From contig JAKACN010000012.1 of NCBI GenBank assembly GCA_021821365.1, positions 1-41,235 on the forward strand: a DNA stretch of 41,235 bases, in the 5' to 3' direction. How positions within the stretch are numbered: the first letter of the stretch is position 1; every line of letters begins with the position of its first letter. The DNA comes from Pseudomonadota bacterium. GTDB lineage: Bacteria > Pseudomonadota > Gammaproteobacteria > Burkholderiales > Burkholderiaceae_D. Positions 6,160 to 30,722 of this stretch are shown piece by piece. The translations under genes were made by a program, and so were the position numbers. Below the pieces are notes generated by a model. The model had not been told where the DNA came from. It saw nothing but the letters and a program-made list of their open reading frames with translations, and ran no database searches.

Positions 6160-7461
6160 TCAGTCCGCGCATGCCGGCGTGATCTTCTTCTCGGCGGCGT
6201 ACTTGCCGGACGATTCCTCGACCAGCTTGCGGGTCAGCGCCTTGTCGCCCGTGACCCAGGTCGAGGTGACCGGCACCCACTTCTTGCCGTTCCATTGCTG
6301 CACCTTGACCGCGCCCGAGCCTTCATGGTCGTCGCAGGTGGTCTTGACCGGCGGGAACATGCCGAGCGCGCCAAGCTGCTTCTGGCGGGCCTCGTCGATG
6401 TTCAGGTTTTCAAAGCCCCAGCGGATCTGCTGCGCCGTCATCTGCTTGCCCTTGCCGAACTTCTCCTGCGCCTTGCGCATCGCTTCGACCCACAGGATGG
6501 CTGCCGTCACGCCGCGCATGTGGTACACGGAACCGACGCGGGTCTTGTCGTCGAGGTTGCCCTTGCCGGCGTCATAGACCTTCTTGCGGATATCGTCCAG
6601 CACCGGGTAGTTGCCCGGGGTGTTGAAGGTCATCGAGGTGTAGTTCTTCGCGGCTTCGCCGGCCGGGATCACGTCCTCTTCCGAGCCCGCCCACCACACG
6701 CCGAGCATCTTCTCGCGCGGGAAGCCGTTGCGCTGCGCGGTCTTGATCGCCACCGCGTTCATCACACCCCAGCCCCACAGGATCACGTAGTCGGGCTTGG
6801 CCTGGCGGATCTGCAGCCACTGCGACTGCTGCTCGTTGCCTGGATGCGCGACCGGGATCTTGATCAGTTCGAAGCCATACTTCTTCGCCATTTCATCGAA
6901 GACCGGGAAGGGCTCCTTGCCGAAGGCGGAGTCGTGGTACAGGTCGACGATCTTCTTGCCCTTGAGCTTTTCGACGCCGCCGTTCAGGCTGCCGAGATAG
7001 GCGATCATCGCCGCCGCCTGGTCCCAATAGCTCGTGATGAGCGGGAAGACATACGGGAAGACCTTGCCGTTGGCCGCGTCGGAGCGTCCGTAGCCGAGGG
7101 TCGTCAGCGGAATCTTGTCGGTGGCGACGCGGTCCAGGATGCCGTAGGCGATGCCGGTCGAGAGCGGTTCCACCAGCGAGGCGCCGCCATTCTTGGACTT
7201 CAGGCGCTCATAGCACTCGACGCCGCGCGAGGGGTTGTATTCGGTTTCGCATTCTTCCCAGCTGAGCTTCACGCCGTTGATGCCGCCGGTCGCGTTCACC
7301 AGGTTGAAGTAGTCGATCGCACCGCCGTAGAAGCCGGAGCCGCCGGCAGCATAGGGGCCGACGCGATAGGAAAGCAGCGGAACGAATTGTTCCTGTGCTG
7401 CCGCGACGCTCAGGGAACCGGCCAGCGCGGCGCCCAGCAGTACTGATTTGATCAATTTCAT
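6160..7461 (-). CDS. Liv-type ABC transporter substrate-binding protein
   Basis: 433 residues with a Sec signal peptide (charged MKLIK, hydrophobic core, cleavage after AAA near residue 22). The mature part starts QEQFVPLLSYRVGPYAAGGS, as in periplasmic type-1 binding proteins. It is longer than LivJ/LivK of E. coli (about 345 mature residues) and has paired cysteines in the ECETEY/VECYE region. This resembles the subgroup found beside CoA ligases rather than true leucine-binding proteins. GGAGGAGG gives a very strong ribosome binding site, consistent with high expression of a binding protein. The ligand is unknown; an aromatic or fatty acid is an inference from the neighbours. Confidence 0.9.
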   Translation of the reverse strand: MKLIKSVLLGAALAGSLSVAAAQEQFVPLLSYRVGPYAAGGSGFYGGAIDYFNLVNATGGINGVKLSWEECETEYNPSRGVECYERLKSKNGGASLVEPLSTGIAYGILDRVATDKIPLTTLGYGRSDAANGKVFPYVFPLITSYWDQAAAMIAYLGSLNGGVEKLKGKKIVDLYHDSAFGKEPFPVFDEMAKKYGFELIKIPVAHPGNEQQSQWLQIRQAKPDYVILWGWGVMNAVAIKTAQRNGFPREKMLGVWWAGSEEDVIPAGEAAKNYTSMTFNTPGNYPVLDDIRKKVYDAGKGNLDDKTRVGSVYHMRGVTAAILWVEAMRKAQEKFGKGKQMTAQQIRWGFENLNIDEARQKQLGALGMFPPVKTTCDDHEGSGAVKVQQWNGKKWVPVTSTWVTGDKALTRKLVEESSGKYAAEKKITPACAD

Positions 7462-24727: not shown

Positions 24728-24977
24728 GTTTGCTGCCCCGTCGGTCGGCGGCTTGTCAGTTTGACCATGCCATTCACCGAACCGAATTAAATTCGATATT
24801 GCGGAATGCCGGGAAATAAATTGCTGCCGACCCGTGGATTCCGTGAAAAGAACGCAAGATAATTTTCCTCGATCTTCTCCATAATGCCCATCCGTGACCC
24901 ATCCCGTTCACAGAGTCGGGCGCGGCGCGACACAATCGGCGCGTCCTGGAGAGATACTTCATCGAGGAACAACAATC

Positions 24978-26102
24978 ATGAAACTGAACAAGATTATCGG
25001 CGGTCTTGCCATCCTGGGCCTGGTCGGCACGGCAGCCGCGCAGGAAGTCGTGGTCAAGATCGGCCACAGCGGCCCCTTGTCCGGCTCGCAAGCCTTTTCC
25101 GGCAAGGACAACGAAAACGGCGTGCGCCTCGCCATCGAGGAACTGAACGCCAAGCCGATCACCGTCGGCGGCAAGAAGCTCAAGTTCGAACTGGTGAGCG
25201 AGGATGACCAGGCCGATCCGAAGTCCGGCGTGAGCGTGGCGCAGAAGCTGGTCGACAGTGGCGTGAAGTACGTGGTCGGTCCGTACAACTCCGGTGTCGC
25301 GATCCCGGCCTCGCGCGTCTACAGCGAAGGCGGCGTCGTGGTCGCCACCGTCGCGTCCAACCCGAAGGTCACGCAGCAAGGCTACAAGAACCTGTTCCGC
25401 GTCAACGCCAGCGACTCCCAGCTCGGCTCCAAGATGGCGCTGTACGCCGCCAAGGAACTCAAGCTGAAGACCGTCGCCGTGGTGGATGACCGCACCGCCT
25501 TCGGACAAGGCGTCGCCGAGGAATTCGAGAAGCAGGCCAAGGCTTCCGGCATGAAGGTGGCCGCCCATGAATTCACCACCGACAAGGCCTCCGACTTCAC
25601 CTCCATCCTGACCAGCCTGAAGGCCAAGAAGGTCGACGCGATCTTCCTCGGCGGCTATGCCCCGCAGGGCGGCCCGATGGTACGCCAGATGAAGCAGCTC
25701 GGCATTACCGCCAAGCTGCTCGGCGGCGACACCATCTGCGTGCCGGAAATGGGCAAGCTCGGCGGCGACGCCGTGGGTGAGAACGTGCTGTGCGCGCAAG
25801 GCGGCGCCATCCTCGACAAGGCCGCCAGCGGCCCGGCTTTCAAGGAAAAGTACAAGAAGCGCTTCAACCAGGACCCGGACGTCTACGCCGCTTCCTTCTA
25901 TGACGGCGTGATGATGTATGCCGACGCGATGAAGAAGTCCAATTCGATCGATCCCGCCAAGGTCGGCGCCGAAATCTACAAGGGCACCTACAAGGGCGTC
26001 GCCGGCACCTACTCCTTCGACGACAAGGGCAACATGAAGCAGTCGCCGGTCACGGTGTTCACGTTCAAGAACGGGCAGCCGACGCCGTTGGTCAGCTACT
26101 AA
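24978..26102 (+). CDS. livK: Branched-chain amino-acid-type ABC substrate-binding protein (LivJ/LivK-like)
   Basis: 374 residues with a Sec signal (MKLNKIIGGLAILGLVGTAAA, then QEVVVKIGHSGPLSG). The mature length and motifs such as GHSGPLSGSQAFSGKDNENG, YVVGPYNSGVAIPASRVYSE and TDKASDFTSILTSLKAKK match true Leu/Ile/Val-binding proteins better than the operon copy at 6160-7461. No permease or ATPase genes are adjacent, so it must work with a Liv transporter encoded elsewhere. GAGGAAC precedes the ATG, and an intrinsic terminator follows the stop. Confidence 0.92.
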   Translation: MKLNKIIGGLAILGLVGTAAAQEVVVKIGHSGPLSGSQAFSGKDNENGVRLAIEELNAKPITVGGKKLKFELVSEDDQADPKSGVSVAQKLVDSGVKYVVGPYNSGVAIPASRVYSEGGVVVATVASNPKVTQQGYKNLFRVNASDSQLGSKMALYAAKELKLKTVAVVDDRTAFGQGVAEEFEKQAKASGMKVAAHEFTTDKASDFTSILTSLKAKKVDAIFLGGYAPQGGPMVRQMKQLGITAKLLGGDTICVPEMGKLGGDAVGENVLCAQGGAILDKAASGPAFKEKYKKRFNQDPDVYAASFYDGVMMYADAMKKSNSIDPAKVGAEIYKGTYKGVAGTYSFDDKGNMKQSPVTVFTFKNGQPTPLVSY

Positions 26103-26122: not shown

Positions 26123-26153
26123 AAAAAGAGGAGCGGAAACGCTCCTCTTTTTT
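26123..26153 (+). terminator. Intrinsic terminator, likely bidirectional
   Basis: GAGGAGCG (26128-26135) and CGCTCCTC (26140-26147) form a perfect 8-bp stem with a GAAA tetraloop. It is followed by TTTTTT and preceded by AAAAA. It lies between the convergent livK-like gene (stop 26102) and the diguanylate cyclase gene (stop 26152). The A-tract becomes a T-tract on the minus strand, though it partly follows that gene's stop codon. Confidence 0.92.
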
Positions 26154-27642
26154 ATGCACTCGCCGCCTCGACGCCGCCATCCTCCGGCATCAGCGCCACC
26201 TGCAGCCGATTCCGCCCATTCGCCTTGGCCTTCGACAGCGCATCGTAGAGCCGCGCAAAGAAAGCCCACCCCGCTTCCTGCAGCCCGAACTGCGCCACAC
26301 CAAGGCTGATGGTGATGCCGCGGTCCGGCACCACTGCGGAGAAATCGTGCGCGTCGATGGCTTCGCGCAGCTTTTCCGCCACCGTCGCTGCCTGCTCCAG
26401 CGCGCATTCCTTGAGCAGGACCATGAATTCCTCGCCACCCCAGCGCACGATCACGTCGCTCTCGCGCACGGTGTTGCGCGCCACCATCGCCGCCTTGCGC
26501 AGCACGTCGTCGCCGGCGCCGTAGCCATGGCTGTCATTGATCTGCTTCAGGAAGTCGATGTCGAACAGGATGCAGGACATCGGCCGGCCGGTGCGCTCCA
26601 CGTCCAGCTTGGCGTGGTGAAAGACGATGTCGAATGCCTGCCGGTTGAGCAATCCCGTCAGCGAGTCGCTGCCCGCCGACCGCTCCAGTTGCGCGCGATG
26701 GCGGCGCGCGCCAAGCGTCAGGATGACCAGCACGATCAACGTGGCGAACAGGCCGATGGCGAGATTGAGCAGAAAGCGGTGCCGCACCGGTTCGACGAGC
26801 GGCGCAAGATCCTGCTCCACGAGAAGATGCCAGCCCAGCTCCGGCACGAAGCGCGCGCTGACCAGGACGCGCGCGCCGTTGCGCTGGTATTCGAACCAGG
26901 CCGGCTTGCTGTCCTTGTGCAGCAACTGGCGCGCGATCGCGCCGATCCCGGGAGCCTGTTGCAGCGCGCCGTGCCACTGCTGCAGCGCGCCTGCCGCCAG
27001 CACCAGTGAGCCTTGCCCATCGACGAAGGAGATGCGGCTGCCGAAGCGGCGCGGGACACTCTCGATCAGTTCTCCCAACCGGTCCGCCTTGAGGCCGACC
27101 CCGGCCACGCCGAGGAAGGTGCCGTCCCTGGAGAGCATGCGGTGGTGGATGAACACCGTCATCGCGCCATCGTTCACGCGGTCGACGGCGATGTCGGCGA
27201 CGTAGGGCGTATGTGCATCCTTCGCGCGGAAGAACCAGTTGTCCTGCGCGTCGCCTTCCTGGATCGCCTTCAGCGTGCCGTCGGCGTAATAGTATTTGCG
27301 GCTGCGTTCGGAGACCAGGAAGGTGGTGGCGGCGCCCTGCAGTTGCCGCACGTCGGAGAGATAGTGCACGATCGGCGCCGCATCGCTTTCGCCGTTGAGC
27401 AGCCAGTCCTGCACGAAGCTGTCGTTGGCCATCATCGACGCGATCACGGCCGGTTTCTCCAGGTCGGCCTCCAATGCGGCCTGCACCTGGTCGCCGGCCA
27501 GCGGCAGCACCCGTTCGCCGAGTTCCTGTCGCAGCGCGTGGCTGGCGGACTGGTAGCCGGGGATGGGCGTCGCGAAGAATGCGCCCAGGAGCAGGGCGCT
27601 TATCCAGACGGTGGAGCGATAGGTTTGCAGGAATGGCGGCAT
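26152..27642 (-). CDS. Membrane-bound diguanylate cyclase with periplasmic sensor domain
   Basis: 496 residues. Membrane segments are at about 10-30 and near 300-325 (FLLNLAIGLFATLIVLVILTLG). Between them is a periplasmic Cache-like sensor (about 40-290, with WLLNGESDAAPIVHYLSD and FLGVAGVGLKAD). The cytoplasmic GGDEF domain has GGEEF preceded by RESD five residues upstream (the inhibition site), so it should make c-di-GMP. The first residue was set at ATG 27642, which has GAGAAA upstream; longer starts add a low-quality extension. It diverges from the ethylene-receptor-like kinase, with a 339-base gap that shows no other gene. Confidence 0.9.
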   Translation of the reverse strand: MPPFLQTYRSTVWISALLLGAFFATPIPGYQSASHALRQELGERVLPLAGDQVQAALEADLEKPAVIASMMANDSFVQDWLLNGESDAAPIVHYLSDVRQLQGAATTFLVSERSRKYYYADGTLKAIQEGDAQDNWFFRAKDAHTPYVADIAVDRVNDGAMTVFIHHRMLSRDGTFLGVAGVGLKADRLGELIESVPRRFGSRISFVDGQGSLVLAAGALQQWHGALQQAPGIGAIARQLLHKDSKPAWFEYQRNGARVLVSARFVPELGWHLLVEQDLAPLVEPVRHRFLLNLAIGLFATLIVLVILTLGARRHRAQLERSAGSDSLTGLLNRQAFDIVFHHAKLDVERTGRPMSCILFDIDFLKQINDSHGYGAGDDVLRKAAMVARNTVRESDVIVRWGGEEFMVLLKECALEQAATVAEKLREAIDAHDFSAVVPDRGITISLGVAQFGLQEAGWAFFARLYDALSKAKANGRNRLQVALMPEDGGVEAASA

Positions 27643-27981
27643 GGCGATTTTCTCGTGGCTCAGGCAGGCTGCATTCCGATCCGCGACGCGAGGCCTGTGG
27701 CGTGTCCCGGCGAACACGGCTGGAACAAGTATGGGGCATCGTCCCGGGGCGGCGCAATACGATGTTGTGTGGATGCCTGAACCCGTCGCGCCGGCGCTGG
27801 CCTGCCCGTGCAGGCGGTTCCATTGTCTTTGCGTGCCAGATTGACAATGCCGGATTGGCAAGCTGGTACACTTGCGCTGCTGCGGTTGCGGCCGGCTTGG
27901 TTTTCCTCATGCCGGATGCAGCCGCCGGAGACAAATGCCGGCAAACAGCCGAACGACAGCCCGGGAACATGGGAGGAAAAG

Positions 27982-29118
27982 GTGTCCAATCTGGTGGAGC
28001 AGTGGTTTTCGAGCAAACGATTTTTCTCCTTCGGCCCTGGCTATGTGAGCAATCCCGAACTGCTGTGGATCAATGTGGCTTCGGATGCGGTCATCGGCCT
28101 GTCCTGCTATTCGATTTCCACACTGCTGCTTTACTTCGTGTACCGCCGCGGGAACGTTCGCTTCCACTGGATGTACGTGATGTTCGCGCTGCTCATCTTT
28201 GCCTGCGGCACCTCGCATCTCGCCATGCTCGCCGCGATCTGGACGCCGATCCCCGGGCTGGATTCGGCGGTCAAGGCGGTCACCGCCGTCGTCTCCGCCG
28301 CCACTGCGATCATGCTGCTGCCGATGGTGCCCAAGCTCCTGCTGCAGCCCAGTGCCGCGCAATTGCGCAAGGTGATCGCGCAGCTTGAGCACGAGGTGGC
28401 GGAGCGCCGGAATATCGAAGAGGCATTGCGTCAGTCGCAAGGGACCCTGCGCGAGCTGGCGGCCTACCAGGAACGCATCCGGGAAGACGAGCGCAAGCGC
28501 ATCGCGCGCGAGATCCACGATGAGTTGGGGCAGAACCTGCTTGCGCTGCGGCTCGACGTATCCGGCCTGCACGCCCGCGCCGGCGAGCACCATCCGCACC
28601 TCAGGCAACGGGCGGCGACCGCGCTGGAGTATATCGACACGACGATGAAATCGATCCGCAACATCATGAACAACCTGCGGCCGCCGGTGCTGGATCTCGG
28701 CCTGAGCGCCGCGATCGAATGGCAGGTGCGGCAGTTCGAGCAGCGCAACGACATCAAGTGCGAGCTCGTGATGGACGAAGAGGGCATGGCCTTGCCGGAC
28801 GCGCAGGCGACGGCCATCTTCCGCATCCTGCAGGAATCGTTGACCAACATTGGCCGTCATGCGCATGCGAACCATGTGCGCATCGCGCTGGCGGTCGTGA
28901 ACAGCCGGCTGCTGCTGACCATCGAGGATAACGGCGTCGGCATGTATCCCGGCGATCGCCGCAAGCCGCGCAGCTTCGGGCTGGTCGGCATCCAGGAGCG
29001 GGTCAAGATGCTGAACGGCGAGCTGACGATCGACAGCCGCGTCGGCAAGGGCACGGTGCTGAGCCTGTCCGTTCCGGTCTATTATCCGGCGCCAAAGACG
29101 GCTCCATCCGGCGCGTAG
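27982..29118 (+). CDS. Histidine kinase with ethylene-receptor-like membrane domain
   Basis: 378 residues. Three membrane helices (about 24-55, 60-90, 95-120) closely resemble the ethylene-binding domain of plant ETR1. SDAVIG carries Asp35, ACGTSHL carries Cys75 and His79 (the copper ligands in ETR1), and VTAVVSAATAIMLLPMVP matches ETR1 helix 3. The Asp-to-Cys spacing of 40 equals ETR1 (Asp25, Cys65). A coiled-coil linker leads to a HisKA_3 domain (REIHDELGQN, His179) and an ATPase domain (DNGVGM, GLVGIQER), the NarX/DegS class. GTG 27982 was chosen for GGGAGG five bases upstream; ATG 27916 is the alternative. No response regulator is adjacent. Confidence 0.88.
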   Translation: MSNLVEQWFSSKRFFSFGPGYVSNPELLWINVASDAVIGLSCYSISTLLLYFVYRRGNVRFHWMYVMFALLIFACGTSHLAMLAAIWTPIPGLDSAVKAVTAVVSAATAIMLLPMVPKLLLQPSAAQLRKVIAQLEHEVAERRNIEEALRQSQGTLRELAAYQERIREDERKRIAREIHDELGQNLLALRLDVSGLHARAGEHHPHLRQRAATALEYIDTTMKSIRNIMNNLRPPVLDLGLSAAIEWQVRQFEQRNDIKCELVMDEEGMALPDAQATAIFRILQESLTNIGRHAHANHVRIALAVVNSRLLLTIEDNGVGMYPGDRRKPRSFGLVGIQERVKMLNGELTIDSRVGKGTVLSLSVPVYYPAPKTAPSGA

Positions 29119-29203
29119 ATCCGTTTTGCGCCTAGTCACGGCCTATCGTGCGCGAACAGGTACAGTCGACGGATGATTGTTTCCGACCAGGCCTGACCAG
29201 GAC

Positions 29204-30343
29204 ATGGCCACGATCGCCGGCGTGTTGCCGGCCGCATACGACCCACTTGTCGCCAGCAAGGTTGCCGGCCTGCGCCATGTCGATGACAGCATGCCGGGCA
29301 TCACGCGCCGCGCAGCGAACGGCGGCTTCCGCTACATCGCATCGGATGGCCAGCCTGTCCGCGACGAGGCGACGCTGGCGCGCATCAAGGCGCTCGCCAT
29401 CCCGCCCGCATGGACGGAGGTGTGGATCTGTCCGTGGGACAACGGGCACATCCAGGCGACCGGGCGCGATGCGAAACGGCGCAAGCAGTACCGCTACCAT
29501 GCGCGCTGGCGCAACGTGCGCGACGAGGCGAAATACGAACGCGTGCTCAGCTTCGGCATGGCCTTGCCGGCGATCCGCAGGCAGGTGGATGAAGACCTCG
29601 GACGGCACGGCCTGCCGCGCGAAAAGGTGCTGGCCACCATCGTGCATCTGCTGGAAGCCACCATGATGCGGGTCGGTAATGAGGAATATGCGCGGCACAA
29701 CAAATCCTTCGGCCTGACCACCTTGCGCGACCGCCATGTGCGCATCGACGGCAGCGAGGTCGAATTCCATTTCCGCGGCAAGAGCGGCGTGCGGCATGCC
29801 ATCAAGGTCGAAGACCCGCGCCTGGCGCGCATCATCCGGCGCGTGCGCGACCTGCCGGGGCAGGAGCTGTTCCAGTACGTGGATGACGATGGACAGGTGC
29901 GCAGCGTCGGCTCGGCCGACGTCAACGATTACCTGCGCGCGTTGACCGGCGAAGACTACAGCGCCAAGGATTTCCGCACCTGGGCCGGCACGCTGCTGGC
30001 TGCCCTCGCGCTGCAGGAATATGAAAAGGTCGACTCCGACGCGCAGGCGCGCAGGAACGTGGTGCGCGCGATCGAAACGGTCGCGGAAAGGCTCGGCAAC
30101 ACGCCCTCCATCTGCCGCAAGTGCTACGTCCATCCCGCGATCATCGACGCCTACCTGGACGGCACCATGCTGCACGCCATGCAGGAGCGGGCGCAGCAGG
30201 AACTGGACCATGACATGCGCGCCATGCGTCCCGAAGAGGCGGCGGTGCTTGCCCTGCTGCAGCGCAGGTTGAGAGCGGGCGAACCGGCGTCGCCGGTGAA
30301 AGGCCGTGCCGGATACCACCGGAAATCGCGGCGCGCCCGCTGA
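29204..30343 (+). CDS. Type IB DNA topoisomerase (poxvirus-like)
   Basis: 379 residues, typical of bacterial TopIB. It nicks one DNA strand through a 3'-phosphotyrosine to relax supercoils. The catalytic tyrosine is Tyr308 in CRKCYVHP. The core has KRRKQYRYH and LLEATMMRVGNEEYARHNKSFG, with the usual basic catalytic residues (for example RTWAGT, about 262-267). The C-terminus is basic (RKSRRAR). ATG 29204 was chosen; a TTG nine codons upstream is possible. No adjacent gene suggests a shared pathway. Confidence 0.93.
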   Translation: MATIAGVLPAAYDPLVASKVAGLRHVDDSMPGITRRAANGGFRYIASDGQPVRDEATLARIKALAIPPAWTEVWICPWDNGHIQATGRDAKRRKQYRYHARWRNVRDEAKYERVLSFGMALPAIRRQVDEDLGRHGLPREKVLATIVHLLEATMMRVGNEEYARHNKSFGLTTLRDRHVRIDGSEVEFHFRGKSGVRHAIKVEDPRLARIIRRVRDLPGQELFQYVDDDGQVRSVGSADVNDYLRALTGEDYSAKDFRTWAGTLLAALALQEYEKVDSDAQARRNVVRAIETVAERLGNTPSICRKCYVHPAIIDAYLDGTMLHAMQERAQQELDHDMRAMRPEEAAVLALLQRRLRAGEPASPVKGRAGYHRKSRRAR

Positions 30344-30419: not shown

Positions 30420-30722
30420 ATGATCCTGGAACTCGCCGACATCCGCATCCAGCCGGGCAAGCAAGCCGAATTCGACGCCGCCATCCAGCGCGGCGTCGAG
30501 CAGGTGATCGCCAAAAGCAAGGGCTTCCGCGGTTATAAAATCAACAAGGGCATCGAATCGCCGGAGCGTTACGTGCTGATGATTTTCTGGGAAACGCTGG
30601 AAAACCATACCGTGGACTTCCGGCAATCGCCGGCGTTCCAGGAATGGCGCGCGATGGTGGGACCGTATTTCGCGGAGGCGCCGACGGTCGAGCACTTCAG
30701 CCTGCTGGCGGAATCCGCCTGA
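30420..30722 (+). CDS. Antibiotic-biosynthesis-monooxygenase (ABM) domain protein
   Basis: 100 residues of ferredoxin-like fold. It starts with a beta strand (MILELADIRIQPGKQAEFDAA) and has the RYVLMIFWETLENHTVDFRQS stretch typical of ABM proteins. Members include small oxygenases, heme-degrading proteins and many of unknown role; no catalytic set is diagnostic here. GGAAAG precedes the ATG. Confidence 0.85.
   Translation: MILELADIRIQPGKQAEFDAAIQRGVEQVIAKSKGFRGYKINKGIESPERYVLMIFWETLENHTVDFRQSPAFQEWRAMVGPYFAEAPTVEHFSLLAESA

Follow-up and report, generated by a model that had tools for sequence, protein, structure and literature searches.

A HisKA_3 histidine kinase with an ethylene-receptor-type membrane domain and signs of relaxed constraint on its binding pocket

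Few of the predicted bacterial ethylene receptors have, to our knowledge, been assayed for ethylene binding. Such putative receptors are predicted from sequence in many bacteria and have been proposed to act in plant-microbe contact, according to an extract of PMC11819568, and for one of them, AzoEtr1 of Azospirillum brasilense, the same extract describes saturable ethylene binding. For plant ETR1, the available part of PMC6586836 names I35, P36, I62, C65 and H69 as essential, that of PMC8879215 reports that the substitutions Y32A, F61A, I62A, C65Y and H69A diminish binding, and that of PMC11819568 names D25 and C65. The set of seven binding residues used here (D25, Y32, I35, P36, I62, C65 and H69) was assembled from these three partly available sources and from what Wang et al. 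2006 reportedly found.

The window is the whole stretch of DNA that was analysed (41,235 nucleotides), and the genus of the window and its relatives was taken as Noviherbaspirillum. It encodes a histidine kinase with a membrane domain of the ethylene-binding type, which is laid out as follows:

27971..27976, + strand: GGGAGG, a likely ribosome-binding site 5 nt 5' of the GTG (sequence, by eye)
27982..29118, + strand: HisKA_3 histidine kinase with an ETR1_N membrane domain, 378 aa, GTG start (translation, Pfam, orthologues)
28057..28341, + strand: ETR1_N (ethylene-binding-type) domain, residues 26-120 (Pfam PF25487)
28489..28692, + strand: HisKA_3 phosphoacceptor domain, residues 170-237, with His179 in EIHDELGQ (Pfam)
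28807..29079, + strand: HATPase_c domain, residues 276-366 (Pfam)

The open reading frame at 27982..29118 and its HisKA_3 output, as read in the initial annotation, are borne out by the translation, by the GTG start with its GGGAGG and by Pfam, where HisKA_3 and HATPase_c both exceed their cut-offs and identify the protein as a HisKA_3 kinase. A profile search of the membrane domain had been proposed there as a check, and this search matched ETR1_N (PF25487) over residues 26-120 at 2.7e-29 and 101.7 bits, far over the cut-off of 27; the E-value in the genome search was 8.7e-30. Searching the PDB sequences with the whole protein gave nine sequences, all of them matching the kinase core, with DesK as the best solved-structure match (phmmer 8e-14), and the PDB sequence search with a 40-row profile of the sensor domain gave no match. 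In the AlphaFold2 prediction (40 sequences, mean pLDDT 86) long helices were observed at residues 25-56, 62-87 and 93-112, and together with hydropathy these indicate three transmembrane helices in the sensor. In this model helix 1 carries D35 and C42, helix 2 carries C75 and H79, and helix 3 carries K98.

The residues of the window protein at the pocket positions of ETR1 are listed below:

28084..28086, + strand: Asp35, at ETR1 Asp25 (sequence, alignment)
28105..28107, + strand: Cys42, at ETR1 Tyr32, where 99% of 107 canonical rows have Tyr (sequence, alignment)
28117..28119, + strand: Ser46, at ETR1 Pro36, where 93% of 107 canonical rows have Pro (sequence, alignment)
28204..28218, + strand: Cys75 to His79, at ETR1 Cys65 and His69, the retained copper ligands (sequence, alignment)
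28273..28275, + strand: Lys98, at ETR1 Lys91 (sequence, alignment)

The pairings D35/D25, C75/C65, H79/H69 and K98/K91 were taken from the AzoEtr1 numbering in the extract of PMC11819568, and those for Y32, I35, P36 and I62 were extrapolated by the same offset of 10 as the D, C and H positions. D35, C75 and H79, which had been assigned to these ETR1 counterparts in the initial annotation, are present and paired as printed for AzoEtr1 in that extract, and the protein has in them the Asp25/Cys65/His69 residues of ethylene receptors. I45 (ETR1 I35), I72 (ETR1 I62) and K98 (ETR1 K91) are also present. In all, five of the seven ETR1 binding residues are retained (D35, I45, I72, C75 and H79) and not the full seven, and the two departures that had been claimed, Tyr32 to Cys42 and Pro36 to Ser46, are both real in the alignment. 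The original work behind the ETR1 residue set is reportedly that of Wang et al. 2006. In helix 3, the six positions whose conservation reaches 95% among the 107 canonical rows were all found to be retained (K98, T101, A102, S105, T108 and A109), which fits the near-identical third helix described in the initial annotation. Over the domain, conservation is 90% or higher at 34 positions, of which the window protein keeps 24. The MPHGHC motif ahead of helix 1 is absent from the window protein, where FFSFGPGY is found instead.

The canonical rows are 107 of a total of 139, and all seven residues occur in 88 of them. Left out were the 13 genus orthologues, six related HisKA_3 rows, seven duplicates or fragments (L075, L076, L077, L084, L085, L108 and L153) and six odd or cut rows (G054, G050b, G059b, G072a, G072b and G083b). 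Rows from genome contigs were found with patterns from the ETR1_N domain and so lean to conserved residues, which the order and phylum samples do not.

Five of the 139 rows have cysteine at ETR1 position 32; besides the window these are G007, G038, G044 and G083b, none of which keeps more than three of the seven residues. L237, from the order and phylum samples, also has Cys at this position and keeps two. A change from Tyr to Cys requires a single base. Serine at position 36 was found together with the other six residues in G006, G029, G068, G090, L150, L227 and L231, and this recurrence suggests that Ser may be tolerated there. We noticed further departures in the alignment. Four HisKA proteins (L047, L061, L062 and L063) have Ser at the Pro36 position with an apparent one-residue deletion in helix 1 and the other six residues kept. 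Glutamate replaces the Asp25 residue in L081, L083, L086, L188 and L230, with the other six kept except in L081, and asparagine occupies the same position in L131, L201, L203 and L211.

ETR1_N matches (E up to 0.001) were found in 14 of the 15 genus genomes and 49 of the 294 sampled family genomes, and the order and phylum samples gave them in 27 of 399 and 29 of 398 genomes, respectively. Viral contigs held no relative. A total of 56 new loci came from the order and phylum samples (with two further places without a locus), and 48 of these were parsed: 29 have all seven residues and 13 have six; of the remaining six, L204 shows all seven by eye, L210 and L239 score under the Pfam cut-off, and L235-L237 depart from the set. 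Seven unparsed loci were read by eye, where L215, L223 and L233 show all seven residues and L206, L208, L234 and L238 four or five; L209, which is below the cut-off, lies outside this reading. Additional diverged ETR1_N domains were seen in other proteobacteria (L234, L235, L236, L237 and L238), and it is possible that these are independent decays.

A syntenic orthologue of the kinase is present in 13 of the 15 genus genomes, the window included, and the binding residues are lost among these orthologues by degrees. All seven are kept in G005 (Noviherbaspirillum denitrificans TSA40), six in G013 (Herbaspirillum sp. ST 5-3), five in the window, G010 and G011 (Noviherbaspirillum sp. Root189), four in G012, G004 and G014b, three in G007 and G003b, one in G001 and G008 and none in G002, with the alignment at the seven positions uncertain for G001, G008 and G002. 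Cys75 or His79 is absent in nine of the 13 orthologues and both are absent in four; by eye, the alignment showed no conserved replacement of the lost ligands in the other orthologues. In a kinase-only tree with outgroups, four to seven keep/lost changes were counted per binding position, and in a tree of concatenated neighbour proteins from the 13 loci two to four, where both trees have many weak branches and some rows of the latter are under half filled. If copper ligands cannot be regained, then by eye the neighbour-protein tree has Cys65 lost five times and His69 lost four times.

The HisKA_3 motif occurs in 21 of the 59 ETR1_N matches of the genus and family, the architecture being called by sequence motifs with some loci cut at 1,500 flanking bases. 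At least six residues are kept in four of the 21 HisKA_3 rows (G005, G021a and G016a with seven each and G013 with six), whereas 33 of the 38 rows without this motif keep as many. Three hydrophobic stretches remain in the sensor, the kinase boxes were observed by eye to be intact in all 21 aligned HisKA_3 rows, and none of the genus matches contains an internal stop codon. G006 has no HisKA_3 orthologue match; a different ethylene-domain HisKA protein adjoins an amidohydrolase there that is 80% identical to the one in the window (L047:5783-10309), and this protein is possibly a replacement at a related place.

The mean pairwise identity among the 13 orthologues is 0.35 in the sensor and 0.68 in the rest of the protein, and in all 78 pairs the sensor is less conserved than the rest. 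Among full-residue relatives this order is reversed in 782 of 783 pairs (5 of 6 HisKA_3, 756 of 756 HisKA and 21 of 21 unclassified), although the pairs are not independent and the selection favours conserved domains because the controls were picked by their full residues. Each of these controls has the full set of seven and a stretch of over 180 residues following the domain, only pairs with a rest-identity of 0.35-0.8 were used, and the controls include many closely related Nostoc and one Burkholderiaceae genus, with G005 present in both sets. A sensor at least as constrained as the rest, an unpublished yardstick drawn from the relatives here, was found in none of the 78 orthologue pairs.

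By the NG86 method, which is crude at these distances, the sensor dN/dS is 0.32 for the window-G013 pair (bootstrap 0.19-0.54) and 0.41, 0.44 and 0.26 for the three other orthologue pairs. Six control pairs, of which half keep seven residues and half keep six, give 0.05-0.10. The kinase dN/dS in the four orthologue pairs is 0.09-0.19. The sensor/rest ratio of dN/dS was observed to be 2.3-3.0 in the four orthologue pairs and 0.20-0.76 in the six controls; the bootstrap interval of this ratio exceeds 1 over its full width for every orthologue pair and for no control. Since the sensor dN/dS remains below 1, the domain is still constrained. The best control for relaxed constraint is the within-genome pair of G003 and G014, each of which carries both kinds, with a dN/dS of 0.10 for the full-residue sensor and 0.41 for the decayed orthologue. 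GGDEF proteins of G003 and G014 with an all-seven domain of the ethylene-binding type are located at L042:8009-10375 (-) and L043:7994-10366 (-). Over the 13 orthologues, 48 of 91 cells are kept at the binding residues against 169 of 260 at other conserved positions of the transmembrane part (nominal P 0.045, with cells that are not independent). Decay specific to the pocket was set aside, and the decay is domain-wide and not aimed at the pocket, because the loss at the seven positions is only marginally above that at the other conserved positions.

The genes around the kinase are the following:

24894..26102, + strand: Peripla_BP_6 (livK-type) gene, upstream (Pfam; match in 7 of 12 other orthologue loci)
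26152..27861, - strand: dCache_1-GGDEF diguanylate cyclase, divergent (Pfam; of the 13 loci, only the window and G013, with L046 and L075, have it in this position)
29177..30343, + strand: DNA topoisomerase IB, downstream (Pfam; nine of the 12 other loci have a long match and one a remnant)
30420..30722, + strand: ABM-domain gene (Pfam; match in 12 of 12 other orthologue loci)

In addition, a cupin gene was matched in nine and an amidohydrolase in seven of the 12 other orthologue loci, with one contig being short. The window has two Peripla_BP_6 (livK-type) genes, at 6160-7461 (-) and 24894-26102 (+). The diguanylate cyclase that had been described as diverging from the kinase is real (26152-27861, -; Pfam). 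As a conserved partner it was rejected, since it is syntenic only here and in G013 while the other matches are to generic GGDEF proteins (30-34%), and its presence at the locus is therefore no evidence for a pathway. Topoisomerase IB was likewise rejected as a fixed partner because a long match is found in just nine of the 12 other loci; G013 has a 41-aa match (L046:8798-8920), and the fetched stretches of G010 and G004 (L048 and L051) have none. The claimed absence of an adjacent response regulator agrees with the Pfam scan, in which none of the 28 window ORFs covered, a subset of the total, gave a Response_reg match. ACC deaminase (TIGR01274) was considered as a sign of ethylene biology and set aside: four of the 15 genus genomes have a match, none over the cut-off, and G000 has none. 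The window genome has further HisKA_3-type kinases with cores that are 56-59% identical. We noticed two HisKA_3 kinases that by eye start with a receiver-like segment, unflagged by the motif test, at L241:2710-4035 (+; window genome) and L244:2912-4273 (-; G009), and their cores are 59-63% identical to that of the window kinase. Because related kinases carry such a segment, a shared unlinked response regulator is plausible for the window kinase.

We consider the window kinase to be an ethylene-receptor-derived HisKA_3 kinase under relaxed pocket constraint, with a probability of roughly 0.55 on the basis of the sequence comparisons. Its ancestor would have sensed ethylene through Cu(I), as suggested by the orthologue G005 and the related G021a and G016a, which keep all seven residues. 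In most of the genus ethylene would no longer select for the pocket, and the three helices would persist mainly as a membrane anchor and signal-transmitting bundle, or would have another input, with the kinase signalling to a response regulator encoded elsewhere. The window protein would then be an intermediate in which D35/C75/H79, K98 and helix 3 are kept and Y32 and P36 are lost. It may still hold copper, and the loss of Y32 and P36 makes it probable that ethylene is bound weakly or not at all. As the pocket seems to be wearing away with the kinase intact, this copy may no longer be a normal ethylene sensor. Counter to decay, the window protein belongs to the better-preserved members of the series: the copper ligands, the six conserved helix-3 positions and 24 of 34 conserved positions overall remain, and six of the seven residues persist in the sister G013. 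Of the initial annotation's proposal that this kinase senses ethylene or a similar small ligand, membership by descent holds through the ETR1_N match, but sensing by this copy is weakened because two of the seven binding positions are changed, the constraint on the domain is relaxed and nine of 13 orthologues lack Cys75 or His79; the kept copper ligands and helix 3 remain in its favour. No description of degenerate bacterial ethylene-binding domains or of such decay was found in the open-licence literature, and subscription papers may differ.

It is somewhat unlikely that the window protein is a working ethylene receptor in which Cu(I) on C75 and H79, positioned by D35 and K98, would bind ethylene and alter the kinase output, and Cys42 and Ser46 would only tune the affinity. 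Such a receptor would agree with the ETR1_N match, with the retained copper triad, K98 and conserved helix-3 positions, with the numbering of the proven AzoEtr1 (extract of PMC11819568) and with the seven rows named above that combine Ser36 with the other six residues; the available part of PMC9603746 also proposes that Agaricus proteins are functional receptors although they have just two of the three essential residues. However, Y32A diminishes ETR1 binding in the extract of PMC8879215, the other rows with Cys at this position (four of 139, and L237) keep at most three residues, the sensor is under relaxed constraint with the MPHGHC motif lost, and no response regulator was found nearby, unlike the arrangement given for AzoEtr1 in the extract of PMC11819568. 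We find it doubtful that the ETR1_N fold has been freed from ethylene in a bacterial lineage and kept for signalling with another input (metal, thiol or membrane state), where the window protein, having Cys42 next to the kept Cys75 and His79, would stand midway with its metal site remodelled; if this were true, a bacterial "ethylene-binding domain" need not mean ethylene sensing.

A change of ligand, in which Cys42, Cys75 and His79 would make up a three-coordinate Cu(I)/Ag(I) site, or else a redox switch, for metal or thiol sensing in place of ethylene, is improbable. Cys42 in helix 1 is level with Cys75-Gly76 in helix 2 when counted along the predicted helices (i + j about 118), and a dN/dS below 1 indicates that some function is kept. 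The proximity of Cys42 and Cys75 is, however, drawn from residue counting, the sister G013 has Tyr, by eye nothing conserved takes the place of the lost ligands in the other orthologues, and Cys42 occurs elsewhere without Cys75 (Val75 in G007 and Gly75 in G038), which resembles one-step drift from Tyr to Cys. Remodelling of the copper site by Cys42 was rejected as it is unsupported by co-occurrence across the rows, and it is this occurrence of Cys42 without retained copper ligands that makes a remodelled metal or thiol site so improbable. We would hardly expect an incipient pseudogene in which sensor and kinase are both losing function. The decay of the sensor domain is in line with it, but the kinase dN/dS of 0.09-0.19 in four pairs, the catalytic boxes undamaged in all 21 rows, the genus matches free of internal stops and the gene standing at its locus in 13 of 15 genomes all argue against it.

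Whichever residues the individual copies have kept, the orthologues provide one kinase at one locus whose binding residues range in number from seven down to zero while the kinase part stays intact, and this is a natural graded series for the requirements of the pocket. An ETR1_N match alone does not identify an ethylene sensor.

Among the known systems, AzoEtr1, the proven receptor, is like the window protein in its three-helix ETR1-type domain, where D35, C75, H79 and K98 have the same numbers, and in its histidine kinase output, as given in the extract of PMC11819568. According to the same extract AzoEtr1 has all seven residues, a PAS domain with the histidine kinase and an adjoining response-regulator gene, whereas the window protein departs at Y32 and P36, has a kinase of the HisKA_3 type and showed no response regulator in its vicinity. 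SynEtr1 (Slr1212, Synechocystis) and plant ETR1 share the ethylene-binding-type domain and the copper ligand positions with the window protein, which differs from both in having no GAF domain, a HisKA_3 kinase and two of the seven binding residues changed. DesK-type HisKA_3 kinases resemble it in the kinase core, and the DesK match is confined to query residues 141-365 with the sensor outside it. The orthologue of N. denitrificans TSA40 (G005, L077) is located at the same locus with the same architecture and 61% identity and, unlike the window protein, has all seven residues, the MPHGHC motif and a His at the Lys98 position.
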